Below are positions 49,402 to 64,000 of a DNA stretch of 64,000 nt, one piece after another (positions within the stretch are counted from its first letter, which is position 1; every line of letters begins with the position of its first letter). The notes beneath the pieces are model-generated. The model was not told the DNA's origin, did no database searches, and saw nothing but the letters and a program-made list of their open reading frames with translations. Origin of the DNA: Rhodopseudomonas palustris HaA2 (GTDB lineage Bacteria; Pseudomonadota; Alphaproteobacteria; Rhizobiales; Xanthobacteraceae). The position numbers and the translations under genes were made by a program. The stretch covers positions 1,612,001 through 1,676,000 of the forward strand of contig NC_007778.1 in NCBI RefSeq assembly GCF_000013365.1. The letters are read 5' to 3'.

Positions 49402-50280
49402 TCACACCACGTCGGCGAAACTCTGCCCGTTCATATCGATGCTGAGGCCTTCCAGCGCGAGGTCGTTGATTTCGCCTCCCATGGCCTTGATGCTTTCCTC
49501 GCGGATCAGCGCCATCAGTCCGCGACGGAGTGCCAGGAATTCCGACGACATCATCATCGATTGCTGCCGTGGACGCTCGAGCGGAATCACGATCTCGGCC
49601 TTGATCGTGCCGGGGCGCGTCGTCATGCAATAGACGCGATCGGACAAAAAGATCGCCTCGTCGATGTCGTGGGTGACGAACAGCACCGAGATCTTCAGGC
49701 GCTGCCACATGTTGGTGAGGATCTGCTGCATGATCACCCGCGTCTGCGCATCGAGCGCGCCGAACGGCTCGTCGCAGAGCAGCACCTTGGGACCGGTCGC
49801 CAGCGCGCGCACGATGCCGACGCGTTGCTTCATGCCGCCCGACAGACTATCCGGATATTTGTTCTCGAACGCGGTGAGCCCGGTGATCCCGAGCAGCGTG
49901 CGCGCAGCGCGGTCGCGGCTCGACTTGTCGAGGTGTTTCATCTTCATGCCGAACTCGACGTTTCCCTTCACCGTCTTCCAGGGAAACAGCGAGTATTGCT
50001 GAAACACCATGCCGCGCTCGGAACTGGGGCCGTCGACCACGACCTCGTCGACCAGAACGTCGCCCGTGGTCGGCTTCAGAAAGCCGGCGACGGCGTTGAG
50101 CAAGGTCGATTTGCCGCAACCGGACGGCCCGACGATCGATACGAACTCGCCCGGATTGACGTGGATCGAGGCGTCGGTCACCGCCTCCATCGGCCCGTCG
50201 AGCGTCTCATAGCTCAGCCCGAAATTACGGACGTCGACGCGGCCCTTGGTCGGTGTCGGTTTCGGCGCTTGCGTGCTCAT
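49402..50280 (-). CDS. NitT/TauT-type ABC transporter ATPase (transporter 1)
   Basis: A 292-residue ATPase of the nitrate/taurine/sulfonate family. Walker A GPSGCGKST is at about 51-59, LSGGMKQRVGIVRAL at about 153-167, Walker B VLLCDEPFGALD, and switch His in FVTHDIDEA. Its start overlaps the permease stop by one base. It is third in an operon: binding protein, permease, ATPase. Related in sequence to the second ATPase at 58447. Confidence 0.9.
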   Translation of the reverse strand: MSTQAPKPTPTKGRVDVRNFGLSYETLDGPMEAVTDASIHVNPGEFVSIVGPSGCGKSTLLNAVAGFLKPTTGDVLVDEVVVDGPSSERGMVFQQYSLFPWKTVKGNVEFGMKMKHLDKSSRDRAARTLLGITGLTAFENKYPDSLSGGMKQRVGIVRALATGPKVLLCDEPFGALDAQTRVIMQQILTNMWQRLKISVLFVTHDIDEAIFLSDRVYCMTTRPGTIKAEIVIPLERPRQQSMMMSSEFLALRRGLMALIREESIKAMGGEINDLALEGLSIDMNGQSFADVV

Positions 50281-51200
50281 TATTTGCTCCATGGCATGAC
50301 GAGGCGGCCCAGCCCGCGGATCAACATGCTGGAGCCGAGCCCCAGCACGCCGATGCAGATCATCCCCAGCGCGATGTCGGCATACTGCACGAGTGAATAG
50401 GCTTCCCAGGTGAAATAGCCGATGCCGAACTGGCCGGAGATCATCTCGGCGGCGATCAGCGACACCCAGGCCACGCCCATGCCGACGGTGAGGCCGGTGA
50501 AGATGTGCGGCAGCGAGGCGGGAAAATACACTTCTCGGAAGATCGCAAATTCGCGGGCGCCGAGGCATTGCGAGGCGCGCACCAGCACGGGATCGACCAG
50601 TTTCATGCCGTGCAGAGTGTTGACCAGGATCGGAAAGAACGAGCCGAGGAAGGTGATGAAGACAATGCTCTGCTCGTTGGTCGGCCACAACATGATCGCC
50701 ATCGGCACCCAGGCGATCGCCGGGATCGGCCGCAGCACCTCGCTGATCGGAAACAGCGCCTCGTGGATCAGCTTGAAGCGGCCCATCACCATCCCGAGCG
50801 GCACCGCGATCAATGCGGCCAGCGAGAAGCCGATCAGGATGCGGCGGCAGCTCAGCAGGACGTGCATGAAGAACTTCGAATCGTGCATCGCTCGGGTCAG
50901 GCTGTCGTAGACCGCGGCGGGCGAGGGCACGTTGGTGAAGCGGACGAAGAACACCACGCGATTGGCGGTGAGCAGGTGCCAGGCGAACAGGAACAGCACC
51001 AGCGCGACCGCGCCGATCAGCAATGCGCGCAGGCCGCCGCGGTTGAGCTTGAGCCAGCGCCTGATATACGTCCCCGGCGAAGCCGCGCCGCGGCGCGGCG
51101 CGGTCGGGGCCGTGGCGGCCGACGGGAGCCAGCCCACACGGAAGGCAGCGGCCGGCGAGTCCGGCCCCTGCTGGTCGCGCCGCACCGCGGAGCTTTCCAT
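50280..51200 (-). CDS. NitT/TauT-type ABC transporter permease (transporter 1)
   Basis: A 306-residue permease with six helices after a polar, Pro/Ala-rich N-terminus of about 50 residues. The EAA-type loop is ASQCLGAREFAIFREVYFPASLPHIFTGL at about 207-235. The start ATG is chosen because GGAGG lies 7 bases ahead. The upstream binding-protein gene stops 3 bases before it. Confidence 0.9.
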   Translation of the reverse strand: MESSAVRRDQQGPDSPAAAFRVGWLPSAATAPTAPRRGAASPGTYIRRWLKLNRGGLRALLIGAVALVLFLFAWHLLTANRVVFFVRFTNVPSPAAVYDSLTRAMHDSKFFMHVLLSCRRILIGFSLAALIAVPLGMVMGRFKLIHEALFPISEVLRPIPAIAWVPMAIMLWPTNEQSIVFITFLGSFFPILVNTLHGMKLVDPVLVRASQCLGAREFAIFREVYFPASLPHIFTGLTVGMGVAWVSLIAAEMISGQFGIGYFTWEAYSLVQYADIALGMICIGVLGLGSSMLIRGLGRLVMPWSK

Positions 51201-51202
51201 CG

Positions 51203-52624
51203 TCAACCTCCGCTGACCGCTGACTTGAGGGCTTCGTCGAAATTCAGCACCTTGCCGTTGATCTTGGCGGCATGCGCTTCGGCGTCCTTCTTGAGCAGGA
51301 ACGGCGACAACTGCGCCTTGTCGGCGCCGACCGTGTAGTAGGCCTGGTCGGCGAACAGCTTGATGCCCCGGGCGGAGTCGAACACATAGGCCATGTTGAT
51401 CTTCTTGCCCTTGGCCTTGATGTCCGCATAAGCGGCGAGCGTGCAGGCCGCGCTGCTGAACGGCTCGATGCCGTCGCCGTCGACCCAGACCTCGCCGGCC
51501 TTGCGCGGCTCGGTGATCGGCTTCTTGCAGAATTTGTCCTCGCCGCTGATTTCGTAGTTCTTGGTGCTCTTCAGCTCGGCGTCGTAGTCGAGCTTCAGTT
51601 CGGCATAGGCCTTGCGGATGTAGCTGTCGTCGACCCAGCTCTTCGGATCGAATTCCTTCATGCGGCCGAGATTCTGCAGCACCTTGACGTCGACCGCGGC
51701 GGCCTCGATCAGCTGCGGCTTGATCGTCGGATCGGTGGTCATGTTGCCGCCCGGTCCCAGGAAGATGTAGACCACTTCCTTGTTGATGCCGGTCCATTCC
51801 TGGATCTTTTCGGCGGCGAGCTTCGGATCGGCGCGCAGCCAGGCATTGGCCGCGATGATCGCCTTGACATAGGCGACCACGACTTCGGGATATTTCTCGG
51901 CGAAGTCGGTACGCACCACCACGCCGTGCCAGGTCGGCAGATTGGTCTCGACGCCGTCGAAGATCTTGCGGGCGAAACCGCGGAACGGCAGTAGTTCGGC
52001 GAACGGGACGAAATCGGCGTGGGCGTCGATCTTCTTCTCCTGGAGATTGGTCGAGCCGACTTCCGGGCTCTGGCTCACCAGTTGCCAATAGTCCGCGGGC
52101 CAGCCGCGATCCTGCATCGCCTTTAGGATCATGCCGTGCGCGGCGGAGCCGAACGGCACGCTCACCAATTTGCCCTTGAGATCGGACAGCTGATAGTACG
52201 GGGAGTCCTTGTGAACCACCAGGCCGTTGCCGGAGCCGTCGAGGCTGTAGGCCGCGACCGCGATCAGGCGGCTCTTGCTCTCGGGGTTGCTCTGGAAGGT
52301 GAAGCCGTTCACCACCAGCGGATAGTCACCCATGCCGCCGAATTGCAGCTTGTTGGCCATCATGCCGTTGGTGACGGGTGGGCCGGAGGTGAAATTCTGC
52401 CAATCGAACTCGAATTTGACGTTCGCGTATTTGCCGTCCTTGGGAAGATACTTCTCCAGCAGCTTCAGCTGCCGAATGACGACGCCGGTGGTCGCGGTGT
52501 TGGTGGTGGTGTCCTGGGTGCCGATGCCGACCGTGACGGTGGTCTGGGCGGCGACCGGGGTGCTCGCCATCATCGCGGCGGTGAAGGCGGCGAAAATCAG
52601 ACGATGTCCAGAAGTACGAACCAT
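51203..52624 (-). CDS. NitT/TauT-type binding protein (transporter 1)
   Basis: A 473-residue periplasmic binding protein, longer than the usual 320-350 residues of TauA/SsuA. Signal peptide about 1-26 (ending VAAQ). The fold pattern GVVIRQLKLLEKYLP, FGGMGDYPLVVNGFTF and VSVPFGSAAHGMILKAMQDRG is that of the SBP family for nitrate, bicarbonate and sulfonate. A C-terminal extension of about 100 residues contains two cysteines (FCKKP and AACTLAAY) that could form a disulfide. It begins an operon with its permease and ATPase. Confidence 0.88.
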   Translation of the reverse strand: MVRTSGHRLIFAAFTAAMMASTPVAAQTTVTVGIGTQDTTTNTATTGVVIRQLKLLEKYLPKDGKYANVKFEFDWQNFTSGPPVTNGMMANKLQFGGMGDYPLVVNGFTFQSNPESKSRLIAVAAYSLDGSGNGLVVHKDSPYYQLSDLKGKLVSVPFGSAAHGMILKAMQDRGWPADYWQLVSQSPEVGSTNLQEKKIDAHADFVPFAELLPFRGFARKIFDGVETNLPTWHGVVVRTDFAEKYPEVVVAYVKAIIAANAWLRADPKLAAEKIQEWTGINKEVVYIFLGPGGNMTTDPTIKPQLIEAAAVDVKVLQNLGRMKEFDPKSWVDDSYIRKAYAELKLDYDAELKSTKNYEISGEDKFCKKPITEPRKAGEVWVDGDGIEPFSSAACTLAAYADIKAKGKKINMAYVFDSARGIKLFADQAYYTVGADKAQLSPFLLKKDAEAHAAKINGKVLNFDEALKSAVSGG

Positions 52625-52727
52625 GGAAGACCTCTCGGTGAGCGATTACGACTTGGACGTTGGCAGTTGGTGTCAACATCCTTCGTCGGTTTCGCCGAGA
52701 CGGCAAACGTCGTGGCAGTCGAGTGGT

Positions 52728-52739
52728 CGATTAGTTGCC
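52728..52739 (-). promoter_or_regulatory. Candidate shared operator ahead of transporter 1
   Basis: Read toward the gene: GGCAACTAATCG, a weaker match to the CTGACAAYTAATTGCT element found upstream of three other transcription units in this cluster. It lies about 100 bases from the binding-protein start. Confidence 0.4.
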
Positions 52740-52751
52740 GCGATAGAACGG

Positions 52752-52770
52752 CTGCTCAGCACTTGAGCAG
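52752..52770. promoter_or_regulatory. Perfect inverted repeat between the Crp gene and transporter 1
   Basis: CTGCTCA-GCACT-TGAGCAG. It lies about 130 bases before the binding-protein start and 37 bases past the Crp/Fnr stop. No T-run, so a protein-binding site is more likely than a terminator. Confidence 0.5.
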
Positions 52771-52806
52771 TCTGAGCGTCGGTAGCCGCAACCATAGGCA
52801 GGCACG

Positions 52807-53589
52807 TCAGTCGCCGAGCCCGCGCATCTCCTGCAGCAGATCAGGTCTCAGAATCACGATCTGTGAGCGCCGCGAGGCGACGATGCCCTTCTCCTGCATC
52901 CGTTTCAGGCTGATCGTCACCCATTGCCGTGTGGCGCCGACCATGTGGGCGAGATCGGCATGGGTGAAAGCCGCACCGATCAGGACGCCGTCGGCATCGT
53001 CGACGCCGTAGAGCTGGGCGAGATGCAGCAGCAGATGCGCCAGCCTTTCGGTGATCGAGCGGGTGCCCAGCATCTGCGCCAGCGCCGAGTAGCATTTGCC
53101 CTTGAAGGTCAGCCCCTCGATCAGCCCGATCGCCAGACCCGGAACCTCGACGACCAGCGCGCGCAGATCCTTGCCGGGCAATTGCACGATGTTGGAGTTG
53201 CTGGTCGCGACGCCGGACCACTGATGCACGCCGCTGCCGAAGACTTCCGGTCCGCCGACGAAATTGCCCGGATGCCAATAAGCGAGTGTGATCTCGCGGC
53301 CGGATGGGGCGGTGTAGAACACGCGGATTCGTCCGGTCTCGATCAGATAGATGCCGTCGTGTTTGGCGCCCTGATTGAACAGCGTCTTGCCGCGATACAG
53401 CACCTTGCGCCGGCCGTGCCGCAGCACGATCTCACGCTCGCGATCGGTCAGCGCTGCCAGCAGAGACGGCGGACCGCCCAGCGAACGGGCACTTTCCGTC
53501 AGCAGCAGGGAGTGTCCCGCCTGCGATGCGACGGCCGGGCGGGACGCCACCGGATTCGTTGCGGATTTGACTGAGGCGAGAACCTGCAT
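52807..53589 (-). CDS. Crp/Fnr family regulator (left copy)
   Basis: A 260-residue regulator. After about 35 polar residues, a cNMP-like barrel (about 50-165) includes KTLFNQGAKHDGIYLIETGRIRVFYTAPSGREITLAYW. The helix-turn-helix is DLAHMVGATRQWVTISLKRMQEKG at about 212-235. No Fnr-type cysteine cluster. Its recognition region resembles the regulator at 63732 (ARMIGATRQSISLALTRLQDDG), making the two paralogues at either end of the cluster. An inverted repeat precedes its start. Confidence 0.88.
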   Translation of the reverse strand: MQVLASVKSATNPVASRPAVASQAGHSLLLTESARSLGGPPSLLAALTDREREIVLRHGRRKVLYRGKTLFNQGAKHDGIYLIETGRIRVFYTAPSGREITLAYWHPGNFVGGPEVFGSGVHQWSGVATSNSNIVQLPGKDLRALVVEVPGLAIGLIEGLTFKGKCYSALAQMLGTRSITERLAHLLLHLAQLYGVDDADGVLIGAAFTHADLAHMVGATRQWVTISLKRMQEKGIVASRRSQIVILRPDLLQEMRGLGD

Positions 53590-53606
53590 GCGCACTCCGG
53601 ATTTGA

Positions 53607-53621
53607 CGTGTTCTAAACACG
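53607..53621. promoter_or_regulatory. Perfect inverted repeat before the left Crp/Fnr gene
   Basis: CGTGTT-CTA-AACACG, ending 17 bases before the start codon. It could be an autoregulatory operator. Confidence 0.5.
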
Positions 53622-53738
53622 CAGCAAACCTCGTGCCAATCGCTCGCAACTATGCCGTGCGTGGTCGATCGCTTCCCGGTCGCACGCGTGGACGCGGCCA
53701 AGCGACCCCGCGAACGCCTCAGCGCAACGGACGCCGAG

Positions 53739-54059
53739 CTATTCGTCGCCCAGAGCTCGGAGCAGGCTCCAGGGGTAGATGCCGCGATTGTGGCCGTCGG
53801 AGAAGGCGAGGTTGACGGCATAGCCGCCGATCGGGGCAACGCCGGTGATCGCCAGGCCGTCGAAGCGTTCCGGGAACACGCCGTCGATCCGCGCGCGGAC
53901 GCAGAACGCGCACCGGCAGGCCGCTCGCAACGCTCCGGCCGGCAGCCGAAGCTGTTCGCCATGATCGAGAACGAGTTCGAGCGCGTCGAGATCGGCGCTG
54001 ACGCCGATCCGCGCGGGTGCGACGTCGATCCGAGCGAGTTTGGACGGGGCAACAGACAT
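53739..54059 (-). CDS. DUF971 domain protein
   Basis: A 106-residue protein. The N-terminal strand pattern and LPAGALRAACRCAFC at about 40-54, with a CxCxxC cysteine motif, are DUF971. DUF971 domains occur beside Mrp/ApbC-type iron-sulfur carriers (for example plant HCF101) and gamma-butyrobetaine hydroxylase-like proteins. The GIYPWSLLRALG block is also typical. A role in Fe-S handling is inferred. RBS AGGAGA precedes the ATG. It is divergent from the ferredoxin reductase gene. Confidence 0.8.
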   Translation of the reverse strand: MSVAPSKLARIDVAPARIGVSADLDALELVLDHGEQLRLPAGALRAACRCAFCVRARIDGVFPERFDGLAITGVAPIGGYAVNLAFSDGHNRGIYPWSLLRALGDE

Positions 54060-54228
54060 CCGCGTGTTCTCCTGACCCGATCTCAGCATGCGGCAGCTGG
54101 CATCGACAGCAATTTGTTGCCTCGATCGATGCGTGCCGTCGCGTTCGGTCTGGCAATTCCTTGCTTGGCGTCGCATCGCGGCCCGCACACCATCGCGCAA
54201 CGTCGGCGTCATCAACGGATAGGATCAG

Positions 54229-55002
54229 ATGAGTGCATTCAACAGGGAGCGGGTGCTGTCGGTCCGGCACTGGACCGACACGCTGTTCAGCTTCAGGGCG
54301 ACCCGGAACTCGGGCTTCCGCTTCCTCAACGGGCAATTCGCGATGATCGGCCTCGAAGTCGATGGCCGGCCACTGCTGCGCGCTTACAGCATGGCCAGCG
54401 CCAACCACGAAGAGGCGCTGGAATTCTTCAGCATCAAGGTTCCGGACGGGCCGCTCACCTCGCGATTGCAGCAGATCAAGGAAGGCGACACCATCCTGGT
54501 CGGACGCAAGGCGACCGGTACACTCATCACCGACAATCTCATTCCCGGCAAGCGCCTGTTGCTGCTGTCGACCGGCACCGGACTGGCGCCGTTTGCCAGC
54601 CTGATCAAGGACCCGGAGGTCTATGAGCGTTTCGAGACCATCATTCTGGTGCACGGCTGCCGCCAGGTTTCCGAGCTCGCCTATGGCGAAGGCTTGGTGA
54701 CCTCGCTCGGCTCGGACGAATTCTTCGGGCCGCTGATGCGCGAGCAGTTCATCTACTACCCGACGGTGACCCGCGAGCCGTTCCGCAACCGCGGCCGCAT
54801 CACCGATCTGATCGCATCGGCGCAACTGTTCGACGACATCGGCCTGCCGGCGCTCGATCTCGAAACCGACCGCATCATGCTGTGCGGCAGTCCGGGCATG
54901 CTCGAAGAGCTGCGCGATGATTTCGAACGGGGCGGCTTCGTCGAAGGCAGCCACAGCGCGCCCGGGCACTTCGTCGTCGAAAAGGCCTTCGTCGAGCGCT
55001 AG
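54229..55002 (+). CDS. fpr: Ferredoxin-NADP reductase
   Basis: A 257-residue FAD enzyme moving electrons between NADPH and ferredoxin. FAD-binding block RAYSMASANHEEALEFFSIKVPDGPLTSRL at about 47-76; NADP-binding LLSTGTGLAPFASLIKDP at about 110-127; C-terminal CGSPGMLEELRDDFERGGFVEG near 223-244. The layout is the bacterial Fpr type. It precedes the flavoprotein-ferredoxin genes by 155 bases and could supply electrons to them. Confidence 0.92.
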   Translation: MSAFNRERVLSVRHWTDTLFSFRATRNSGFRFLNGQFAMIGLEVDGRPLLRAYSMASANHEEALEFFSIKVPDGPLTSRLQQIKEGDTILVGRKATGTLITDNLIPGKRLLLLSTGTGLAPFASLIKDPEVYERFETIILVHGCRQVSELAYGEGLVTSLGSDEFFGPLMREQFIYYPTVTREPFRNRGRITDLIASAQLFDDIGLPALDLETDRIMLCGSPGMLEELRDDFERGGFVEGSHSAPGHFVVEKAFVER

Positions 55003-55052
55003 GCGCGGCGCGCGTTCCCGATGGGACGCTCGTCCGGGGCAATGGTGGCGCC

Positions 55053-55068
55053 CTGACAACTAATTGCT
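55053..55068 (+). promoter_or_regulatory. Candidate shared operator ahead of the flavoprotein gene
   Basis: CTGACAACTAATTGCT, one base different from the copy before the TauE gene (63674-63689). It lies 88 bases before the ATG. Confidence 0.6.
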
Positions 55069-55156
55069 ATCGCGGTCGGGCCCGCCGTCTATTCTGACAG
55101 AAATTCCAGTTCTCCGCGGTGGAATGGAACTGCTGCGAACCCATGAGGAATCGGTG

Positions 55157-56899
55157 ATGGCGATGGACGAAATTCTCGACGACATGTCCGAAGTGTCCTG
55201 CGACGTGCTGGTGATCGGCGGCGGAACCGCCGGGCCGATGGCGGCGCTGAAGGCCAAGCTGAAGAACCCGAAGGCCAATGTGGTCCTCCTGGAGAAAGCC
55301 AACGTCAAGCGCTCCGGCGCGATCTCGATGGGCATGGACGGGCTCAACAACGCGGTGATCCCCGGCTACGCCACGCCGGAGCAGTACACCAAGGAGATCA
55401 CCATCGCGAACGACGGCATCGTCGACCAGAAGGCGGTCTACAAATATGCAGAAAATTGCTACTCGATCATCGAGGAGCTCGACTCCTTCGGCATCCGCTT
55501 CCTGAAGAACGAGAACGGCGACTTCGCGGTCAAGAAGGTGCACCATATCGGTACCTATGTGCTGCCGATGCCGAACGGCGAGACCGTCAAGAAGGCGTTG
55601 TACCGGCAGTTGCGCCGCGCCCGCATCCTGATCTCCAACCGCTACATGGCGACGCGGCTGCTGACCGGCAGCGACGGCCGGGTCGCCGGCGCCGTCAGCG
55701 TCAACACCCGCACGGCCGAGATTCTGGTGATCAAGGCCAAGGCGGTGATCCTGTGCATGGGCGCTGCCGGCCGGCTCGGGCTGCCGACCTCGGGCTACAT
55801 GTTCGGCACCTACGAGAACGCCGCGAATTCCGGCGACGGCTATGCGATGGCGTATCACGCCGGCGCCGCGCTGGCGAACCTCGAATGCTTCCAGATCAAT
55901 CCGCTGATCAAGGACTACAACGGTCCGGCCTGCGCCTATGTGGCCGGGCCTTACGGCGCCTTCACCGCCAACAACGAGGGCGCGCGCTTCATCGAATGCG
56001 ATTACTGGTCCGGCCAGATGATGTTGGAGTTCTTCAACGAGCTGCAGTCCGGCAAGGGCCCGGTATTCCTGAAGCTCAACCATCTGCACGAAGACACCAT
56101 CAGCGAAATCGAGACCACGCTGCACAAGGTCGAGCGGCCGACCCGCGGGCTGTTCCACGAAGGCCGCGGCACTGATTATCGCCAGCAGCCGATCGAGATG
56201 CACATCTCGGAGATCGGGTTCTGCTCCGGCCACAGCGCCTCCGGCGTGTTCGTCGACGAATTCGCCCGCACCACGATTCCCGGGCTGTACGCCGCCGGCG
56301 ACATGGCCAGCGTGCCGCACAACTACATGCTGGGCGCCTTCACCAACGGCGCGGTGGCCGGCGAGCACGCGATGGAGTTCGCCGACAATGCCGATTTCGC
56401 CGCATTCGACGCCGCCGACGTCGCGCGCGAGCGAGACCGGGTGATGGCGCCGACCAAGCGCGACGACGGCATTCCGCCGAACCAGATCGAATACAAGGCG
56501 CGGCGGCTGGTGAACGATTATCTGCAGCCACCAAAGGTGACGCGCAAGTTCGAGATCGGCCAGCGTCGGCTTGCCGAAGTCCGCGACGACATGGAGAACC
56601 GGATGATCGCCCGCAACGCGCACGAATTGCTGCGCGCGCTGGAGACTCAGTCGATCCTGGATTGCGCCGACATGGCGGCGCACGCTTCGCTGTATCGCAC
56701 CGAAAGCCGCTGGGGCCTCTATCATCTCCGCACCGACTATCCGGAGAAGGACGACGACAATTGGTTCTGCCACACGCTGCTCAGCAAGAAGGACGGCAAA
56801 ATGGCGAGCGAGAAGCGTGCGGTCGAGCCCTATATCGTTCCGATCGCCGACGACGAGAAGGACCTCTACGACAAGCAGCGCGTGCGCGCCTCCGCCTGA
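55157..56899 (+). CDS. AprA-like FAD flavoprotein (adenylylsulfate reductase alpha-like)
   Basis: A 580-residue flavoprotein of the fumarate reductase/AprA superfamily. The N-terminal FAD motif VLVIGGGTAGPMAALKAK is at about 18-35, followed by EKANVKRSGAISMGMDG and NDGIVDQK, typical of AprA. The second FAD region is LYAAGDMASVPHNYMLGAFTNGAVAGEHA. The C-terminal part is helical. The start is the ATG at 55157 with GAGGA 8 bases ahead; ATG 55124 is an alternative. It is followed 30 bases later by a ferredoxin. Classical AprA works on AMP sulfate; whether this one does is unknown. Confidence 0.88.
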   Translation: MAMDEILDDMSEVSCDVLVIGGGTAGPMAALKAKLKNPKANVVLLEKANVKRSGAISMGMDGLNNAVIPGYATPEQYTKEITIANDGIVDQKAVYKYAENCYSIIEELDSFGIRFLKNENGDFAVKKVHHIGTYVLPMPNGETVKKALYRQLRRARILISNRYMATRLLTGSDGRVAGAVSVNTRTAEILVIKAKAVILCMGAAGRLGLPTSGYMFGTYENAANSGDGYAMAYHAGAALANLECFQINPLIKDYNGPACAYVAGPYGAFTANNEGARFIECDYWSGQMMLEFFNELQSGKGPVFLKLNHLHEDTISEIETTLHKVERPTRGLFHEGRGTDYRQQPIEMHISEIGFCSGHSASGVFVDEFARTTIPGLYAAGDMASVPHNYMLGAFTNGAVAGEHAMEFADNADFAAFDAADVARERDRVMAPTKRDDGIPPNQIEYKARRLVNDYLQPPKVTRKFEIGQRRLAEVRDDMENRMIARNAHELLRALETQSILDCADMAAHASLYRTESRWGLYHLRTDYPEKDDDNWFCHTLLSKKDGKMASEKRAVEPYIVPIADDEKDLYDKQRVRASA

Positions 56900-56929: not shown

Positions 56930-57163
56930 ATGCCGCTCGCCAGTTACGAAACCTCGGTTCCCGTCGTGGTCGACGAAGCCAAATGCATCGCCGACAAGGG
57001 CTGCACCGTCTGCGTCGACGTCTGCCCGCTCGATGTGCTGCGGATCAGCGATCTCACCGGCAAGGCCTTCATGGCCTATGACGAATGCTGGTACTGCATG
57101 CCGTGCGAAGCCGATTGCCCGACCGATGCCGTGAAGGTCAACATCCCCTATCTGCTGAGGTGA
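56930..57163 (+). CDS. Small 2[4Fe-4S] ferredoxin, AprB-like
   Basis: A 77-residue ferredoxin with two 4Fe-4S cysteine sets. The first, CIADKGCTVCVDVCP, is a C-x5-C-x2-C-x3-C variant; the second, CWYCMPCEADCP, is C-x2-C-x2-C-x3-C. The second set resembles AprB. It is about half as long as AprB and lacks the AprB C-terminal tail. It sits between the flavoprotein and a HEAT protein, with spacings of 30 and 3 bases, so a functional complex is likely. Confidence 0.9.
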   Translation: MPLASYETSVPVVVDEAKCIADKGCTVCVDVCPLDVLRISDLTGKAFMAYDECWYCMPCEADCPTDAVKVNIPYLLR

Positions 57164-57166
57164 CTC

Positions 57167-58144
57167 ATGGCCGAACCGTTCGAAGCCTACGACGATCTCG
57201 ACGACATCGACGACCGTCTGCATGCCGCCGATGCCGGTGAACGCCGGGTGGCGATCATCGCGCTGGCCAATTCCGGCGATCCCGGTGCGGTGACGCATCT
57301 CGACCGCATGACGGCCGATCCCGATCCCGGAGTGCGGCAGCAGGTCGGGCTGGCGCTCGCCGAATTCGACGGCCCGGAGGCGGCGGCTGCGCTCGCCAAG
57401 CTGGTGGTCGATCCGGAACAGGCGGTGGCGACGGCGGCGGCCGACGCGATGGCGGAGTTGAAAGATCCCGACAGCGCCGATGCGATCCTGCCACTGGTCG
57501 AGCATTCGCACGCTTTCGTGCGGATGGCGGCGCTGCGCGCACTCAAGGAATTGCGACGCAAGGATTCGCTGAAGCCGGCGCTGGATGCGCTGCGCGACAT
57601 CGACGCCTCGGTGCGGGTGCAGGCGATCGGCGTGATCGGCTTTCTCAAGCTGGAAGAATCGATTCCGGCGCTGACAGCGGCGACTTCCGATCCGGATCCG
57701 CATGTCCGGCGCGCCGCAGTCAGCGCACTGGCGTTCTCGCAACTCAAGCCGGCCGCCGACTCCATCACCCGGGCGCTGTCCGACGGCGACTGGATGGTGC
57801 GCGAGATCGCCGCCGAGACGCTCGGCACCAATGCCAACGGCCCACAGGCCGCCGACGCGCTGATCGGAGCGGTCGCCGACGAGTTCTGGCAGGTGCGGCT
57901 GAAGGCGGTGCGCAGCCTCGGCAAGCTGAAGGTGGCGCGCGGGGTGGCGCAGATCGGCGCGTGCATCGCGCATCAGCAGGCCAATCTGCGCAAGGAAGCC
58001 GCCGCCGCGCTCGGCGAGATCGCCGATCCAGCCGGCCAGAAATATCTCGAGCCGGTGATCGACGACGCCGATCCCGAAGTGCGAAAAAACGCCCGCTGGG
58101 CGCTGCAGCGCATCGACGCCAAGCGTAGCGCCAGCGGCGGGTGA
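57167..58144 (+). CDS. HEAT-repeat (PBS-lyase type) protein
   Basis: A 325-residue repeat protein built from about ten HEAT or PBS-lyase-type helical pairs, such as RRVAIIALANSGDPGAVTHL and VRMAALRALKELRRKDSLKPAL. Such proteins act as scaffolds or assist cofactor attachment. No cysteines or catalytic motifs are visible. It follows the ferredoxin by 3 bases, so it is probably co-translated and may help assemble the flavoprotein-ferredoxin pair. Repeats follow the stop. Confidence 0.88.
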   Translation: MAEPFEAYDDLDDIDDRLHAADAGERRVAIIALANSGDPGAVTHLDRMTADPDPGVRQQVGLALAEFDGPEAAAALAKLVVDPEQAVATAAADAMAELKDPDSADAILPLVEHSHAFVRMAALRALKELRRKDSLKPALDALRDIDASVRVQAIGVIGFLKLEESIPALTAATSDPDPHVRRAAVSALAFSQLKPAADSITRALSDGDWMVREIAAETLGTNANGPQAADALIGAVADEFWQVRLKAVRSLGKLKVARGVAQIGACIAHQQANLRKEAAAALGEIADPAGQKYLEPVIDDADPEVRKNARWALQRIDAKRSASGG

Positions 58145-58156
58145 GCTTCGCGTCTT

Positions 58157-58285
58157 CGTCATTCCGGGGCGCGCACAGCGACAGCTGCGAGCGAACCCGG
58201 AATCTCGCTGCGGTGATTTCGTCAACGTCACGATTCGTCGCGAGAGTCCCGGCTCGCTCGCCTTCGGCTCACGACCCGGAATGAC
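58157..58285. repeat. Intergenic palindromic repeat, CATTCCGGG type
   Basis: Arms begin CGTCATTCCGGGGCGCGC and end CACGACCCGGAATGAC, with matching CCCGGAATCTCG / GAGAGTCCCGG pieces inside. Confidence 0.75.
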
Positions 58286-58298
58286 CGCGTGAGAGATT

Positions 58299-58408
58299 CG
58301 TCATTGCGGCGACGCAATCCAGAACTGCAGGTGCAGCCTGCATGTGACGGCCCTGGATTGCCTCGCTGCCGGGCGACGCTTCGCGTCGCCCTCGGCTCGC
58401 AATGACGG
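58299..58408. repeat. Intergenic palindromic repeat, GCAATCCAG type
   Basis: Left arm CGTCATTGCGGCGACGCAATCCAG begins it (positions 58299-58322); right arm CTGGATTGCCTCG to CTCGCAATGACGG closes it. Third copy of the family at 33557. It ends 39 bases from the end of the convergent ATPase gene. Confidence 0.8.
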
Positions 58409-58446
58409 GTGCTGGCGCGATGCCTCGGCGGAACGCTGCAACGTAA

Positions 58447-59298
58447 CTACTTCACTGCCTGCTGATCGAAGGCGCGCAGGCTTTCGGCGCGGATCAAATC
58501 GAGGCAGTCTTTCTTGTAGGCTGCATAGGCCGGCGACAGCACCAGCTCGCTGCTGCGCGGGCGCGGCAGATCGATGCGCAGGTCGCGCAGGATGCGGCCG
58601 GGACCGGCGCTCATCAACAGCACGCGGTCGGCCAGGAAGATCGCCTCGTCGATGTCGTGGGTGACGAACACGATGGTGGTGCCGACCTGGGCCCACAGCG
58701 CCAGCAGGCTTTCCTGCATCACCGCCCTGGTCTGCGCATCGAGCGCGCCGAACGGCTCGTCCATCAGCAGCACCGCGGGGCGGTTGGCCAGCGCGCGGGC
58801 GATCGCCACCCGCTGCTGCATGCCGCCCGACAGGGTGTGCGGATAGGCGTCGGCGAAGCGAGTGAGCCCGACCATCGCGATCAGATCGTCGGCGATCGCG
58901 CCGGCCTGCTTGCTCGATTTGCCGGCCATGCTGGGGCCGTGCGAAATGTTGCTGCGCACCGATTTCCAGGGAAACAGATGCGGCTGCTGAAACACCATGC
59001 CGCGGTCCGGACCCGGGCCGGTGACCGGCTTGCGGGCGACACGGACACTGCCTTCGAACGGCGTCTCGAAACCCGCGATGGTGTTCAGCACGGTGGATTT
59101 GCCGCAGCCGGAAGGGCCGAGCAGGCAGACGAATTCACCGCGCCGGATCTGGAACGACACACGGTCGGCGGCCACCACCTGGCCTTTCGGCGTGTCGAAC
59201 ACGATGCTGACGTCGTCGACGTCGATCTCGATCGGGGCTTGCGTCGTCGCATCGGCGAGGCTCATGCGATTGTCCGCGAGCTGCATCATCGTCATCAT
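58447..59298 (-). CDS. NitT/TauT-type ABC transporter ATPase (transporter 2)
   Basis: A 283-residue ATPase. Walker A GPSGCGKST, LSGGMQQRVAIARAL, Walker B VLLMDEPFGALD and FVTHDIDEA are intact, matching the SsuB/TauB group. The first ATG at 59298 overlaps the permease stop; several nearby ATG codons (59289, 59286, 59265) are alternatives. Third gene of an operon with the permease and binding protein. Paralogous to the ATPase at 49402. Confidence 0.9.
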   Translation of the reverse strand: MMTMMQLADNRMSLADATTQAPIEIDVDDVSIVFDTPKGQVVAADRVSFQIRRGEFVCLLGPSGCGKSTVLNTIAGFETPFEGSVRVARKPVTGPGPDRGMVFQQPHLFPWKSVRSNISHGPSMAGKSSKQAGAIADDLIAMVGLTRFADAYPHTLSGGMQQRVAIARALANRPAVLLMDEPFGALDAQTRAVMQESLLALWAQVGTTIVFVTHDIDEAIFLADRVLLMSAGPGRILRDLRIDLPRPRSSELVLSPAYAAYKKDCLDLIRAESLRAFDQQAVK

Positions 59299-60056
59299 CG
59301 CCACCACACCAGTCGTTGCGTCAGCGCGGAAAATCCGCGATCGGCCAGAAACGAGATCGCCCCCAGCGCCACCAGCCCGCCCATCACCTGGCCGGTCTGC
59401 AAATTCTGCTGCGCGATCTCGATCCGGTAGACGATGCCCGCGAAGGCACCGGCCAGTTCGGCGGCGACCAGCGTATAGAACGAGATGCTGACCGCAGTGC
59501 GCAGCCCGACCGCGATGTAGGGCAGCGCGCCGAACAGCACGATCTCGGTCAGCATGCGGCGGCGCGGCGTGCCCAGCATCAAGGCGGCGCGGATCAGTCC
59601 GCGATCGATCTTCTGCACGCCGATGTGGGTGGTCAGCCACACGGTGAAGAACACGCCCCAGAACACCAGAAAGATCTTGCCGGTCTCCGACAGCCCGAAC
59701 CACAGGATCACGATCGGCACGAAGGCGATTGGCGGGATCGGGCGCAAGATATGAAACACCGGCGAGAACAGGCTCGAGATCATCTGGAACTGACCGGTCA
59801 GCACGCCGAACACCACGCCGATGCTGGCGCCGAGCAGATAGCCGCTGACGACGCGCGCGACGCTGTAGGCCAGATCGACCGCAAACTCGCCGCTCTTGAT
59901 CCACTCGCCCATCGCCACCGCCACCACGGTCGGCGGCGGAAACAGAATGATGTTGACGATCTGCGAGCGCGACACCAGCTCCCAGACCAGCAGGAACAGC
60001 GGGATCGACAAAATCGAGATCGCCGTATTGATCCGCTGCCGCCGTCCGCTGCTCAT
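59295..60056 (-). CDS. NitT/TauT-type ABC transporter permease (transporter 2)
   Basis: A 253-residue permease with six helices. The EAA-type loop is RAALMLGTPRRRMLTEIVLFGALPYIAVGL near 159-188. The ATG at 60056 is chosen because GAAGG lies 6 bases upstream; ATG 60098 would add 14 residues. The 170 to 220 bases between it and the binding-protein stop contain a palindromic repeat. Its stop overlaps the ATPase start by four bases. Confidence 0.88.
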   Translation of the reverse strand: MSSGRRQRINTAISILSIPLFLLVWELVSRSQIVNIILFPPPTVVAVAMGEWIKSGEFAVDLAYSVARVVSGYLLGASIGVVFGVLTGQFQMISSLFSPVFHILRPIPPIAFVPIVILWFGLSETGKIFLVFWGVFFTVWLTTHIGVQKIDRGLIRAALMLGTPRRRMLTEIVLFGALPYIAVGLRTAVSISFYTLVAAELAGAFAGIVYRIEIAQQNLQTGQVMGGLVALGAISFLADRGFSALTQRLVWWR

Positions 60057-60130
60057 GATCGGCCTTCGGGTGCTGGAGGTCGGAGTCACGTGTTTCATCG
60101 ACAGCTCGATCAGTCTCGGTTGATTACGCC

Positions 60131-60270
60131 GTTCACCTCTCCCCGGTTGCGGAGAGAGGTCGACCGGCTGAGCGCAGCGAAGTCGGGCGATGAGGGGGCT
60201 TTTCACCAAGTCATAACTCGCGGAAACGCCCCTCACGCCGACCCTCTCCCCGCAAGCGGGGCGAGGGAGA
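60131..60270. repeat. Intergenic repeat, CTCTCCCCG type
   Basis: Begins with CACCTCTCCCCGG and GAGAGAGG pieces, includes CGGCGTGAGGGGC-like text and ends with ACCCTCTCCCCGCAAGCGGG. This repeat family is common in rhizobial intergenic DNA. It lies inside the operon between the binding protein and the permease of transporter 2. Confidence 0.65.
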
Positions 60271-60273
60271 TCA

Positions 60274-61266
60274 CTAACCGCCCGCAGTGGTGTAGGTGAC
60301 GCGCGACGGATCGAGTTTCTTCAGGATTGCCGGGGCGAACACCTTTGTGAAATCCGGCATCGTGGCGCCGGGCGGGTGATTGCCGCTTTCCAGTCGCCAG
60401 GCCGCATGGGTCTTCAGCACGTCGAGCTGCCGGTCGTCGAGCCGCACCTGATAGACATAGTCGTTCCAGATCGGAGCCAGGTCTTCGCGCTTGATGGCGA
60501 CGGCCTTGGCGACCGTCGTGATCGCGTCTTCCGGATTGGCCTTCATCCAGGTCTCGGCGGCGATCATCGCCGCCATGAATTTCTCCATCAGCGGGCCGTT
60601 CTTCTCCAGATAGTCGCGCATCACCACGATGTTGAAGGTCTCCGAATAGATCCCCTTGGTATCGAGCTCGGCGACGTCGGCGCCCAACGTCTTCTTGGCG
60701 TTGGCGATGTGCGGCTCCCAGGTGTCGAATGCGTCGATGCTGCCGGACAGCAGCGCCGGCAGCATTTCCTGCGGACGCAAATTCACCAGCGTGACGTCGT
60801 CCTTCTTCAGCCCGGCCGCCTTCAGTAGCGCCAGCGTATAGACCTCGCTGCCGGTGCCGGCGGTGAAGGCGATCTTCTTGCCTTTCAGTCCAGCCTTGTC
60901 CTTGATGCCGGCCTTGGTGGCGACCACGGTTTTGAGGTCCGAGTATTCCATCCGCGCCAGGAACGCGATCGGCTGCCCGGCCATCGCCGCGGCGGTGACC
61001 GGGGCTTCCGCGGTGGTGGCGATGTCGGCGCCGCCGCCCACAACGGTGTCGAGGCATTGCTTGCCGGAGGTGAAGTTGCTCACGGAGATGTCGAGGCCGT
61101 GCTTTTCGAAGAAGCCCTTTTCCTTGGCGACGATGACGATGCCGGAAATCGGCCCGAGATTCTGCGCCAGCCTCGCCTTCAGCATCTCGGCCTCGGCGAT
61201 CTGCGGCCGCAGCAGCGAACTCAGTACCAGCGCTACGGTGATTGCGGCCGTTCTTGCATGCGACAT
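60274..61266 (-). CDS. NitT/TauT-type binding protein (transporter 2)
   Basis: A 330-residue periplasmic protein, normal length for TauA/SsuA. Signal peptide about 1-26 (ending AEAE). The lobes contain GIVIVAKEKGFFEKHGLDISV, SGKQCLDTVVGGGADIATTAEAPVT and KIAFTAGTGSEVYTLALLKAAG. ATG 61266 follows AAGGAGG. Shared operator element GATTAATTGCT lies about 60 bases upstream. Paralogous in fold to the binding protein at 51203 but without its C-terminal extension. Confidence 0.9.
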   Translation of the reverse strand: MSHARTAAITVALVLSSLLRPQIAEAEMLKARLAQNLGPISGIVIVAKEKGFFEKHGLDISVSNFTSGKQCLDTVVGGGADIATTAEAPVTAAAMAGQPIAFLARMEYSDLKTVVATKAGIKDKAGLKGKKIAFTAGTGSEVYTLALLKAAGLKKDDVTLVNLRPQEMLPALLSGSIDAFDTWEPHIANAKKTLGADVAELDTKGIYSETFNIVVMRDYLEKNGPLMEKFMAAMIAAETWMKANPEDAITTVAKAVAIKREDLAPIWNDYVYQVRLDDRQLDVLKTHAAWRLESGNHPPGATMPDFTKVFAPAILKKLDPSRVTYTTAGG

Positions 61267-61327
61267 AGGAGCCCCTCCTTGGTATTCGGTTTGAGACTGC
61301 ATCCTGGTTCCTGGCGTGGAACGCTCA

Positions 61328-61338
61328 AGCAATTAATC
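61328..61338 (-). promoter_or_regulatory. Candidate shared operator ahead of transporter 2
   Basis: Read toward the gene: GATTAATTGCT, matching the right half of the CTGACAAYTAATTGCT element. It is 61 bases from the binding-protein start. Confidence 0.5.
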
Positions 61339-61414
61339 CACCGCGTCGCGCCTGCCGCAGGGCTGAAAAATCATCAGCCGCTGCCCGTCGTGTAGTCATG
61401 TCGTGCCGACTGCG

Positions 61415-62797
61415 TCAGCTGGCTACAGCCAGCGCCGGCACCATCGCCTGTTCGAAGCCGCGCGCCAGCGTGCGCAGCAACGCGTCGTCGCCGGCGCGGC
61501 CGACGAAGCACAGCGACGAGCGCAGGCCGTCGGAGCGGGTCCGGCCGGGGATCGCCACCGCGCACATGTCGAGCGGATTGACGAAATAAGTGTAGGTGCC
61601 CATCGCGCTGTTGAGCGCCATCGGATCGGCCAGCATCTGCGCGATGGTGAAAATCGTCGGCACCGTCGGGACCACCATGGCGTCGCAACCCGCCAGCAGC
61701 AGGCTGGCCTGGCGCTGCGCCTGTTTGATCTCGTACAGCGCCTGGAAGGCGTCGCGGGCGGTGTAGCTGAGGCCGGGCTGCAATGCGCTCCACACTGCCG
61801 GATGAATCGCTTCGGGATGATCGCGCACCACGTCGGCGCAGTCGATCAGCCGCTCCGCCACCATCGCGCTTTGGAACACCAGCCGCCCCGCCGTCTCGAA
61901 CAGTGTGAAGTCGACCGGCTTCAGCCGGTGGCCGAGGCTTTGCAGCACCGCCAGATCGGCCTCGTAGGCGCGGGCCGCCTCGGTGTCGCCGAAGAAAGTC
62001 AGCTGATCGGCGCGCGGAATCGCGATGGTCAGCGGTTGCGGCGCACGCGGGCGCAGCTCGATTGCGCCGGCATCGGTTCGGCTCATCGGATCCAGCACGT
62101 CGAAGCCGGCGATGTTTTCGAGGATCTCGTAGGCGTCGTCGGCGAATTTGCAGAACACCGGGATGCAGTCGAACGAGCGGTTGTTGTAGACGAGGCCACG
62201 CGAGCTCACCAAACCGATGGTCGGCTTCAGCCCGACGATGCCGTTGCAGGCCGCCGGCACCCGGCCGGAGCCGCCGGTGTCGGTGCCGAGCGAGAACGCC
62301 ACGATGTCGCGCGCCACCGCGACCGCGGAGCCGGAGCTGGAGCCGCCGGGGATGTAGGCCGGGTCGATGGCGTTGCGGCACAGCGGATCCGGGCTGCGGG
62401 TGCCGTTCAGCCCGGTGGCGAACTGATCCAGCGTGTTCTTGCCGATCAGCACCGCGCCGGCCTGTTCGAGCAGTGTCACGGCATGCGCGGAGTCTTTCGG
62501 CTCGAGCCGCATCGCCGGGCAATTGGAGGTGGTCGGCAGTCCGGCGACATGGATGCTGTCCTTGACCGAGAACGGCAGCCCGAGCAGCGGCAAGACGGCG
62601 CCGGCATCGGCGCGCGCCTGCAACTCCTCGGCGCGCGCGATGGCCGCCGCGGGGTCGACCAGCAGCGTGAAGACGCCCTCGCCGGCGGCGGCCTGCGCGC
62701 GGCGGCAGGCTTCGGCGATGATCGCGGGAGCTTTGGCGCCGGCGGCCATGGCGCGGCGGATCGAGGCGAAGCTGAAGTCCAAATCGGCCAGAGTCAT
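61415..62797 (-). CDS. Amidase, allophanate-hydrolase-like
   Basis: A 460-residue amidase-signature enzyme. The Ser-Ser-Lys triad is visible: Lys in GLPFSVKDSIHVAG at about 73-86, PGGSSSGSAVAVA at about 149-161 and GTDTGGSGRVPA at about 170-181. GLPTTSNCPA and FATGLNGTRSPDP are especially like the AtzF/allophanate hydrolase group. It has only the amidase domain, without the decarboxylating C-terminal domain of AtzF (about 600 residues). It is downstream of TauE, 28 bases apart, so probably one operon. The real amide is unknown. Confidence 0.85.
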   Translation of the reverse strand: MTLADLDFSFASIRRAMAAGAKAPAIIAEACRRAQAAAGEGVFTLLVDPAAAIARAEELQARADAGAVLPLLGLPFSVKDSIHVAGLPTTSNCPAMRLEPKDSAHAVTLLEQAGAVLIGKNTLDQFATGLNGTRSPDPLCRNAIDPAYIPGGSSSGSAVAVARDIVAFSLGTDTGGSGRVPAACNGIVGLKPTIGLVSSRGLVYNNRSFDCIPVFCKFADDAYEILENIAGFDVLDPMSRTDAGAIELRPRAPQPLTIAIPRADQLTFFGDTEAARAYEADLAVLQSLGHRLKPVDFTLFETAGRLVFQSAMVAERLIDCADVVRDHPEAIHPAVWSALQPGLSYTARDAFQALYEIKQAQRQASLLLAGCDAMVVPTVPTIFTIAQMLADPMALNSAMGTYTYFVNPLDMCAVAIPGRTRSDGLRSSLCFVGRAGDDALLRTLARGFEQAMVPALAVAS

Positions 62798-62825
62798 GCG
62801 CTGTCTTCCTCTTGGTGGCGCCGTC

Positions 62826-63593
62826 TCAGGCGACGGCTTTTTTCCAGACGGCCAGGCTGGCCGTGATGATGGCGATGCTCATCGCCATGGTGAGCAGTGC
62901 CAGCGATACCGAGCGATAGATCCGGCGCGGCAAGTTGGCGAAGGTGAGCAACCCCAATCCGCAGCCGACCGCGGCCGCCGGCACCATCAGCAGGCTGACC
63001 CACCAGATCTCGGCCGAATAAGCGCCGCGCGCGGCCGACAGCGCGATACCGAAACCGGCGCTCATCGCGATGAAGGCAATCAGCGTCGCCCGCGCGCTCA
63101 GCATCGGCATATTGCTGCCGAGCAGCGACACGATCACCGGCGGGCCGCTCATCGCGGTGCTGCCGTTCAGGCAGCCGGACAAGAAGCCGATCGCGGCGAG
63201 GTTCGGCGCGCGCGTCGCCAGCACGTCGCGTTCGCCGCGCCAGGCCCGGAACGCCGCCACCGCGACCGCGAGGCCGAGCAGCAGCCGCATGATTTCAGCG
63301 GGCACCAGCGTCAGCACGCTCAGCCCGACCGGCGTGCCGACCACCGCGCCCAGCGCCAGCCATTTCAGCACCCGCAGATCGACGTGCCGCCATTCCGACG
63401 GCAATGTCAGCAGGCCGATCGCGCATTCCAGCGGAAACACCGACGGCACCGCCGCGGCGGGCGACAGCACCAGCGTCAGGATCGGCATCGCCGCCAGCGC
63501 GAAGCCGAACCCGGAATAGCCGCGGACGAAACCGCCGAACAGGCCCGCGATCAGGATGACCGCGATCCGCTGCGGATCTGAAAACTCGAACAT
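62826..63593 (-). CDS. TauE/SafE family (TSUP) membrane exporter
   Basis: A 255-residue protein with seven or eight helices. The N-terminal half has the TSUP motif GLFGGFVRGYSGFGFALAAMP at about 18-38 and the second half has the paired motif AAIGFLSGCLNGSTAMSGPP near 133-152. Members export sulfite, sulfoacetate or related anions. ATG 63593 is preferred to one further upstream because it starts the family homology. It leads an operon with the amidase. Confidence 0.88.
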   Translation of the reverse strand: MFEFSDPQRIAVILIAGLFGGFVRGYSGFGFALAAMPILTLVLSPAAAVPSVFPLECAIGLLTLPSEWRHVDLRVLKWLALGAVVGTPVGLSVLTLVPAEIMRLLLGLAVAVAAFRAWRGERDVLATRAPNLAAIGFLSGCLNGSTAMSGPPVIVSLLGSNMPMLSARATLIAFIAMSAGFGIALSAARGAYSAEIWWVSLLMVPAAAVGCGLGLLTFANLPRRIYRSVSLALLTMAMSIAIITASLAVWKKAVA

Positions 63594-63673
63594 GCACGAA
63601 GCCGGCGGACTGGTGGTTGATCGGAGTGGGCGAGTTGACGCCGACAAAATCCGGCATTTCCGGATTCATTGTG

Positions 63674-63689
63674 AGCAATTAATTGTCAG
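63674..63689 (-). promoter_or_regulatory. Candidate shared operator ahead of the TauE gene
   Basis: Read toward the gene: CTGACAATTAATTGCT. Fifteen of 16 bases match the element before the flavoprotein gene. It lies 80 bases from the TauE start and contains the perfect palindrome CAATTAATTG. Confidence 0.6.
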
Positions 63690-63731
63690 TTCGACGCTGC
63701 GGCGGTCGCGTCCGTGATGTCGCGCCGCGGC

Positions 63732-64000
63732 TCACTCGCCGGCGTGCCGACGCAGCGCGGTGAGGTCGTTGACGACCAGCGTGGTGGCGCCCGCCGAAAT
63801 CACGCCGTCGTCCTGCAGCCGGGTCAGCGCCAGGCTGATCGACTGCCTCGTGGCGCCGATCATCCGCGCCAGATTGGCCTGGGTGATGCGGCCGAGCGGA
63901 ATTGGGCCGTCGCCGTCCTGAGCTGCGGCCTCGCACAGCTTCAGCAGCAGCAGCGCCAGCCGCTCGCCGACCTTCTGGCCGCCCAGCGTCTGCGCCAGCG
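63732..64000 (-). CDS. Crp/Fnr family regulator (right copy, N-terminus outside window)
   Basis: Only the last 88 or so residues are in the window. They form the winged-helix DNA-binding domain: KVGERLALLLLKLCE, then ITQANLARMIGATRQSISLALTRLQDDGVI and a C-terminal wing. The recognition helix resembles that of the regulator at 52807. It is upstream of TauE on the same strand, about 140 bases away. Confidence 0.85.
   Translation of the reverse strand, partial: LAQTLGGQKVGERLALLLLKLCEAAAQDGDGPIPLGRITQANLARMIGATRQSISLALTRLQDDGVISAGATTLVVNDLTALRRHAGE

Follow-up and report, generated by a model that had tools for sequence, protein, structure and literature searches.

A conserved gene module apparently built on a flavoprotein of adenylylsulfate reductase ancestry and a sulfonate-type importer in Rhodopseudomonas palustris HaA2

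The stretch of DNA analysed here (the window) comprises 64,000 nucleotides of the single-contig 5.33 Mb genome of Rhodopseudomonas palustris HaA2 (NC_007778.1, positions 1,612,001-1,676,000), and from window position 49402 on it harbors a module in which a flavin adenine dinucleotide (FAD) flavoprotein is encoded together with a small ferredoxin and an ABC importer. Importer 1 is encoded on the minus strand by an ATPase gene (49402..50280; PF00005, 8e-32), conserved beside the genes of the permease (50280..51200; PF00528, 1.8e-24) and of a 473-residue substrate-binding protein (SBP1; 51203..52624). The open reading frame (ORF) of the ATPase (49402-50688) exceeds the likely gene (~49402-50280), the start of which was set from the ATG at the end of the permease ORF. 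A Crp/Fnr regulator (ORF 52807..53649; PF00027, PF13545) and a DUF971 protein (53739..54059; PF06155, 7.7e-17, a family now named GBBH-like_N) are encoded on the same strand. On the plus strand lie the genes of Fpr, a ferredoxin-NADP reductase paralogue (54229..55002; PF00175/PF00970; 145.6 bits with NF008178 vs a cut-off of 390), of the flavoprotein (55157..56899; PF00890 and PF02910), of a 77-residue 2[4Fe-4S] ferredoxin with eight cysteines (56930..57163; PF12838) and of a HEAT-repeat protein (57167..58144; PF13646, 1.4e-47). The flavoprotein ORF opens at 55064, and the likely ATG at 55157 is preceded by GAGGAA. Every gene listed in the original prediction for 49402-64000 was recovered at its place by profile searches.

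To compare gene neighborhoods, 116 loci picked for encoding the flavoprotein were used: the best 80 of 592 relatives in genome contigs, biased to close kin, 16 plasmid loci and 20 loci hand-picked out of 49 module-bearing genomes. Neighborhood counts refer to the 98 loci with enough flank (18 were excluded for short flanks, including L071 and L113), and the 40 control regions were taken only from the 20 genomes underlying L136-L155, of which 16 contributed. The ferredoxin was found in 98/98 loci and a separate HEAT gene in 97, the remaining locus being a fused case from Tsukamurella. SBP1 was present in 91 loci (undetected in L095, L098, L124, L129, L137, L146 and L154), an importer-type ATPase in 91, the permease in 90, DUF971 in 90 and a Crp/Fnr or GntR regulator in 91. 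The Crp/Fnr gene is part of the core in many alphaproteobacterial loci, while GntR (31/98 vs 3/40 controls) substitutes for it in Burkholderiales and others. Outside the Bradyrhizobium- and Rhodopseudomonas-like loci, a hand-made list left 66 loci, including Bradyrhizobium loci of another type, with ferredoxin in 66, separate HEAT in 65, SBP1, ATPase and Crp/Fnr or GntR in 59 each, permease and DUF971 in 58 each and Fpr in 20. Over all 116 loci, matches were obtained for the ferredoxin in 115 (not L071), for HEAT in 115 (not L113, a 4.3 kb contig) and for DUF971 in 102. The core therefore consists of flavoprotein, ferredoxin, HEAT protein, DUF971 protein, importer 1 and a Crp/Fnr or GntR regulator. 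The flavoprotein-ferredoxin-HEAT triplet mostly occurs together with importer 1, while Fpr accompanies it in only half of the loci (50/98) and TauE in five. Measured against the refuting pattern named in the original prediction, a triplet kept in the absence of transporters, Fpr or TauE, these counts fit for TauE, half fit for Fpr and do not fit for importer 1. Recurrence in the compared loci shows that the arrangement is more than chance, and because the gene set stays constant although the importer may precede, follow or lie within the flavoprotein operon, the evidence for linkage is stronger than one fixed order would give.

The flavoprotein clearly exceeded the cut-off of the family NF006131/PRK08275 (1076 bits vs 587), named fumarate reductase/succinate dehydrogenase flavoprotein subunit by NCBI. 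All 29 members of alignment A1, which was made without L079 (stop codon in the translated stretch) and L101, matched NF006131 at E<=1e-50. The protein stayed below the cut-offs of aprA (154.7 bits, cut-off 641.75), PRK06854 (280.8, cut-off 557) and PRK13800, a model of 898 positions (810, cut-off 1196). Its best relative in the PDB was 8a8o_A (1.8e-59 with the single sequence, 1.7e-76 with a profile), and 8a8o, the 3'-phosphoadenylylsulfate (PAPS) reductase of Methanothermococcus, was also the top Foldseek match. The designation "AprA-like" of the original prediction thus holds for ancestry among the adenylylsulfate (APS) and PAPS reductases, but not for family membership.

As the AlphaFold2 model of the flavoprotein was weak (mean predicted local distance difference test score 69.6; residues 195-252 below 50), statements on single residues rest on alignments. 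His398 and Asn74 of AprA, which we take to be the catalytic residues, were kept as H352 and N57 in 117/117 sequences, whereas Arg265, presumably a residue of the APS site, was replaced by Leu243 in all 117. Tyr occupies the positions of both W234 and F448 of AprA. Gln145, a loop residue of the APS site of AprA according to the available part of PMC10322725, lies in a loop that is replaced in the alignment of the flavoprotein family. Likewise, the loop Lys120-Arg121-Ser122, which serves the 3'-phosphate in the PAPS reductase of Methanothermococcus thermolithotrophicus (MtPAPSR), has given way to a longer fixed loop (H122, Y127 and P130-P132, 117/117). Since fixed residues stand in place of the Arg of the APS site and of the nucleotide loop, APS and PAPS are both improbable as the substrate.

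In the ferredoxin, the eight Cys and Trp54 were at least 95% conserved (116 rows). Its profile matched AprB (3gyx_B, 7.5e-9) and the beta subunit of PAPS reductase (8a8o_C, 3.2e-7), with polyferredoxins scoring higher, and it is likely the small (beta) subunit of the flavoprotein. The HEAT protein matched positions 610-896 of PRK13800 (1.6e-24), of which the flavoprotein corresponds to the N-terminal part, and on a Tsukamurella plasmid (L119, 9980-12661) a single annotated gene contains a flavoprotein match (3.4e-204) followed in frame by a HEAT match (5.9e-14). That some lineages carry both as one protein supports a link, physical or functional, between flavoprotein and HEAT protein. The DUF971 protein is a probable helper of Fe-S maturation; in three loci from cyanobacteria, the HEAT gene is followed by Mrp/NBP35 genes. 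Elsewhere in the genome another Fpr copy is encoded, which shares 66% identity with that of the module, and the 7Fe-type ferredoxin FdxA was found in 26/98 loci vs 0/40 controls. The prediction that the ferredoxin is the likely partner of the flavoprotein and Fpr its likely electron donor is supported.

Importer 1 was analyzed with respect to its cargo. SBP1 contains an SsuA/TauA-type domain (~27-345) and a NosL-like C-terminal domain (~373-465). It has the SsuA/TauA fold and aligned best with TauA/SsuA, although it scored under the curated cut-offs (SsuA_fam 114.2 of 163.5; TauA 66.9 of 304). In an alignment covering 100/116 loci (score >=300), the sulfonate-contacting Gln was kept in 101/101 rows, and the Gln/Gly contacts looked for were found. 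The nearest NCBI models of the permease were nitrate, SaoP and taurine permeases, all under cut-off. Judged from the binding protein, the cargo is likely a small sulfur oxyanion accommodated in a sulfonate-type pocket. Of the two kinds of anion proposed originally, the sulfur-containing one is hence favored, while this pocket speaks against the nitrogen-containing one.

The NosL-like domain reached 22 bits in the window (Pfam cut-off 24) and matched NosL at E<=0.01 in 18/35 SBP1 relatives (best 5.7e-7). The fold did not appear among the listed structure matches of SBP1, a list filled by the large domain and hence no evidence against it. Copper binding by NosL involves a conserved Cys; the domain in SBP1 has no generally conserved Cys (46% at two positions, 101 rows), and its alignment showed no conserved Met either. 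SCO1 was found in 11/98, PCu(A)C in 9/98 and cytochrome c in 12/98 loci, each with 0/40 in the controls. SCO1/SenC, PCu(A)C and cytochrome c occur together near the module in L075, L076, L077, L079, L081, L083, L084, L086, L090 and L101, SCO1 and cytochrome c in L082, SCO1 only in L111 and cytochrome c only in L151 and L155; in several loci the copper genes sit between the importer ATPase and Crp. Together with the NosL-like domain, the copper genes near the module hint at copper.

Downstream of the HEAT gene, further genes follow on the minus strand. These encode importer 2, with ATPase (ORF 58447..59328; PF00005, 4.4e-34), permease (ORF 59295..60236; PF00528, 1e-18) and SsuA-like binding protein (ORF 60274..61332; TIGR01728, 151 bits, cut-off 163.5), an amidase (61415..62797; PF01425, 4.7e-73), which with 484.9 bits nearly reached the cut-off of 487 of the allophanate hydrolase model NF006043, a TauE/SafE exporter (62826..63647; PF01925, 104.6 bits) and the C-terminal part of a second Crp/Fnr regulator, Crp2 (63732..64000; PF13545, 2.1e-15). 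Both importers are complete, as had been predicted. Crp2 is cut by the window end and complete as an ORF of 247 residues (L204, 1732-2475); the cluster runs on past 64000 on the same strand with a third, TauA-like binding protein (TIGR01729, 189 bits, cut-off 304), a permease and an ArgE/DapE-family deacylase (L204, 1732-5925, including Crp2; genome C1:1675732-1679925). Accessory genes were sought with reference sequences taken from module loci, which favors the test set over the control regions. An amidase was detected in 17/98 loci, YeiH in 33/98 and TauE in 5/98 (each 0/40 controls), and TlpA in 6/98 vs 1/40; the search for TauE used just four reference sequences, which may make 5/98 an undercount. 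Transporter 2, the amidase and TauE are sporadic, and counting them as parts of the module is not supported. The proposed single unit of redox and import functions is supported. The deacylase recurred in 2/116 loci, Roseovarius L088 (610 bits) and L152 (507 bits), and in L088 it lies beside an amidase and a protein closely related to the third binding protein (538 bits). The recurrence of deacylase and amidase suggests that some hosts first hydrolyze amide-linked sulfonates, e.g. N-acyltaurines.

The sulfur context was further analyzed with YeiH (PF03601), annotated as putative sulfate exporter at a cyanobacterial plasmid locus. A whole-genome count, which is free of the reference-sequence bias, gave 60 matches over the 49 genomes, and in 9/49 a match lay within 12 kb of the flavoprotein (-8.7 to +7.7 kb), where ~0.26 would be expected if placed at random. 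These nine genomes span five genera, with five of nine in one genus; in the window's own genome, the sole YeiH copy is not near the module. Clear sulfur genes flank 7/16 plasmid loci: TauE and YeiH in Leptolyngbya and Pseudanabaena, metX, O-acetylhomoserine sulfhydrylase and YeeE in Nostoc, ssuD with sulfate and sulfonate ABC genes in Sinorhizobium, a sulfonate-type ABC importer and an NtaA/DmoA monooxygenase in Cupriavidus, 3-mercaptopropionate dioxygenase and rhodanese in Paraburkholderia (L135), and TauE in Aquabacterium. Two loci are ambiguous, Acinetobacter with a TSUP transporter and Mesorhizobium with a luciferase-like monooxygenase (LLM) family oxidoreductase and an ABC importer, and seven of the 16 showed no sulfur genes in their annotated flank tables. 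Among the genes identified at 49402-64000 there is no ATP sulfurylase (sat), APS kinase, qmo or dsr gene, in agreement with the earlier statement that this is not a classical dissimilatory sulfur cluster.

Taken together, the composition and conservation of the core, the ancestry of the flavoprotein, the sulfonate-type binding site and the exporters nearby in a minority of hosts lead us to give roughly even credence to a sulfur-scavenging module that reductively releases sulfite from an imported sulfonate-like compound. Importer 1 would take such a compound (R-SO3-) into the cytoplasm, where flavoprotein (alpha) and ferredoxin (beta) would form an enzyme built like AprAB and the PAPS reductase of Methanothermococcus. 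Electrons might pass from NADPH via Fpr, either the module's own or a housekeeping one, and the ferredoxin clusters to FAD, with FdxA possibly added in some clades. The reduced FAD, presumably through its N5, would attack the substrate sulfur as proposed for AprA and MtPAPSR. Sulfite would be released and assimilated, and TauE or YeiH-type proteins may export an excess, while HEAT and DUF971 (or Mrp) could serve assembly and Fe-S maturation. This flavin chemistry has so far been proposed for S-O-P anhydrides; a plain sulfonate would need cleavage of a C-S bond, and a sulfate ester, sulfamate or S-sulfo compound would fit it more easily. Of the overall inference made originally, the flavoprotein fed by Fpr and ferredoxin and the imported sulfur anion are retained, and the nitrogen alternative and TauE as a part of the module are not. 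More tentatively, and with rather less confidence than an even chance, the module may represent a third, so far unrecognized branch of the APS/PAPS reductases turned to organosulfur. With electrons supplied by NADPH, Fpr and its dedicated ferredoxin, this branch would remove sulfite from imported sulfonate-like compounds reductively and with no need of an oxygenase; it would be misnamed fumarate reductase/succinate dehydrogenase and be spread over plasmids and chromosomes of alpha-, beta- and gammaproteobacteria, Acidithiobacillus, cyanobacteria and actinobacteria.

Other functions were weighed against the release of sulfite. The flavoprotein has the fold shared by succinate dehydrogenase (SDH) and fumarate reductase (FRD), FrdA ranked above AprA in the structure comparison, and His342 (115/117) aligned with SdhA His354. 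This would suit a fumarate-reductase-type enzyme whose target is a C=C or C-H bond in the imported sulfonate or carboxylate and which frees no sulfur; in one alignment, however, Arg286 of SdhA corresponds to Gln280 and Arg399 falls into an insertion, both of which we take to be catalytic or substrate-binding in SDH, and in sequence the protein is closer to the PAPS and APS reductases than to SDH/FRD, so that we regard this function as unlikely. Its closest relatives being APS and PAPS reductases with the same catalytic His and Asn, the protein might itself be a bacterial enzyme of this kind. The Leu at Arg265, the changed loop at Gln145 or Lys120-Arg121-Ser122, the attached sulfonate-type importer and the lack of genes for ATP sulfurylase and APS kinase in the region argue against it, as do two PF01507 genes at 1.20 Mb in the genome, as expected of CysH and CysD, and make it very improbable.

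Alternatively, flavoprotein and ferredoxin might only feed electrons to a sulfonate-cleaving oxygenase, as is thought for AsfA/AsfB with SsuD in Pseudomonas putida S-313. The asf cluster likewise pairs a reductase and a ferredoxin with a sulfonate-binding protein and, in the part of PMC4267179 available, is described as needed for arylsulfonate use; the accessible text of PMC2864759 names an AsfA/AsfB to which a flavoprotein-ferredoxin pair of the C. metallidurans megaplasmid, putatively Rmet_4334/5, would correspond. LLM genes lie near a few loci (5/80 and 1/20 vs 0/40 controls). Nevertheless, beyond the luciferase-like cluster (5/74 loci) no oxygenase was found among the recurrent neighbor clusters, and the candidate AsfA is only 28% identical to the flavoprotein over a partial length and groups with SDH, which leaves such electron delivery unlikely. 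If importer 1 handled a copper-organosulfur complex, from which the NosL-like domain and SCO1/PCu(A)C would take the copper while the flavoprotein acts on the ligand, the fusion of this domain to SBP1 and the SCO1, PCu(A)C and cytochrome c counts would be explained, although these counts are favored by queries from module loci. The lack of a generally conserved Cys and of a visibly conserved Met and the restriction of copper genes to one group of loci, with none in the window region, render this quite improbable. For a system handling nitrate, cyanate, thiocyanate or biuret, one may cite the permease, for which the nitrate permease model gave the highest score (148 bits, cut-off 209), and the likeness of the amidase to allophanate hydrolase; as the binding protein matches TauA/SsuA best with the sulfonate Gln kept, and the amidase is accessory, we consider it most improbable.

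At E<=1e-100 the module is patchily distributed, in 3/11 listed genomes of the genus, 36/198 sampled in the family and 21/398 sampled in the phylum. The closest named flavoprotein matches came from a Rhodopseudomonas palustris metagenome-assembled genome (97%) and from R. rhenobacensis (96%). At 1e-60 the flavoprotein matched 51 records of the plasmid collection, among them ones from Acinetobacter, Acidithiobacillus caldus, cyanobacteria and actinobacteria. The core is present on an Acinetobacter baumannii plasmid and on A. caldus pTcM1 (L117 and L118), in the latter with no importer 1 in its operon, and therefore moves on plasmids. A tRNA-His gene lies at 49209-49285, 117 bases from the importer 1 ATPase gene; as a recurrent insertion site it was rejected, as none of 23 other loci scanned holds a tRNA-His and two hold another tRNA. 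Upstream of it, two adjacent, mutually similar small proteins (47992-48375 and 48620-49051) are encoded, which presumably are phasin-like. The Rfam scan of 49000-64000 returned the tRNA only, and PADLOC only HEAT repeats. The palindrome TGCTCAGCACTTGAGCA at 52753-52769 upstream of SBP1 is a possible Crp/Fnr-type site; it did not recur in relatives, and no intergenic palindrome recurred across loci (at most 3/29 and 6/34).

Among the matches listed by the literature search, no description of the module and no mention of PRK08275 or NF006131 was found, so that it is apparently a conserved, undescribed module built on a member of the APS/PAPS reductase lineage that has an altered substrate site, and on a sulfonate-type importer. 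PRK13800 is mentioned in one paper, which judging by its title deals with mycorrhizal fungi. Soil sulfur is mostly organically bound, and in the parts of PMC4267179 and PMC9694294 available its release from sulfonates is described as monooxygenase-based. If the reading as sulfite release is true, it would add a reductive route of sulfur release from organic matter, show a change of substrate within the APS-reductase line and correct an annotation as fumarate reductase/succinate dehydrogenase carried by many genomes.

Compared with known systems, importer 1 resembles SsuABC/TauABC in architecture, binding-protein fold and sulfonate contacts, but differs by the NosL-like domain, the sub-threshold scores and the lack of SsuD/TauD in the core. 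The AsfRABC cluster, in the accessible part of its description, is alike in outline, but has a LysR regulator instead of Crp/Fnr or GntR (two cyanobacterial module loci have a LysR-type gene), and this text does not mention HEAT, DUF971 or Fpr, which the module has. In a tree, the putative AsfA sat on a very long branch and joined SdhA and a TfrA-like protein at 96/94; orthology was rejected, as nothing on the C. metallidurans megaplasmid matched at 1e-60 and no more than three partial matches, of 28-31% identity, appeared there. The isethionate reductase Isr of Rhodobacter capsulatus, according to the available text of PMC11423573, shares with the module a purple bacterial host, an SsuABC-type importer and the proposal that sulfite is released reductively from a sulfonate serving as sulfur source; being a nitrogenase-like enzyme with a radical SAM partner, it provides a precedent by a different enzyme. 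AprAB (1jnr, 2fja, 3gyx) shares the fold, the equivalents of N74 and H398 and aromatic residues at the W234 and F448 positions, while the low aprA score and the loss of Arg265 and Gln145 set the module protein apart. MtPAPSR (8a8o; available part of PMC10322725) comes closest, with an alpha subunit aligned over nearly its full length (2-532), the catalytic His and Asn and a small two-cluster ferredoxin-like beta subunit with a Trp at the second cluster; in the module, this beta subunit has 77 instead of 104 residues, the substrate-site Arg is Leu, the K120 R121 S122 loop is exchanged, and an importer, a HEAT protein and a DUF971 protein are added.

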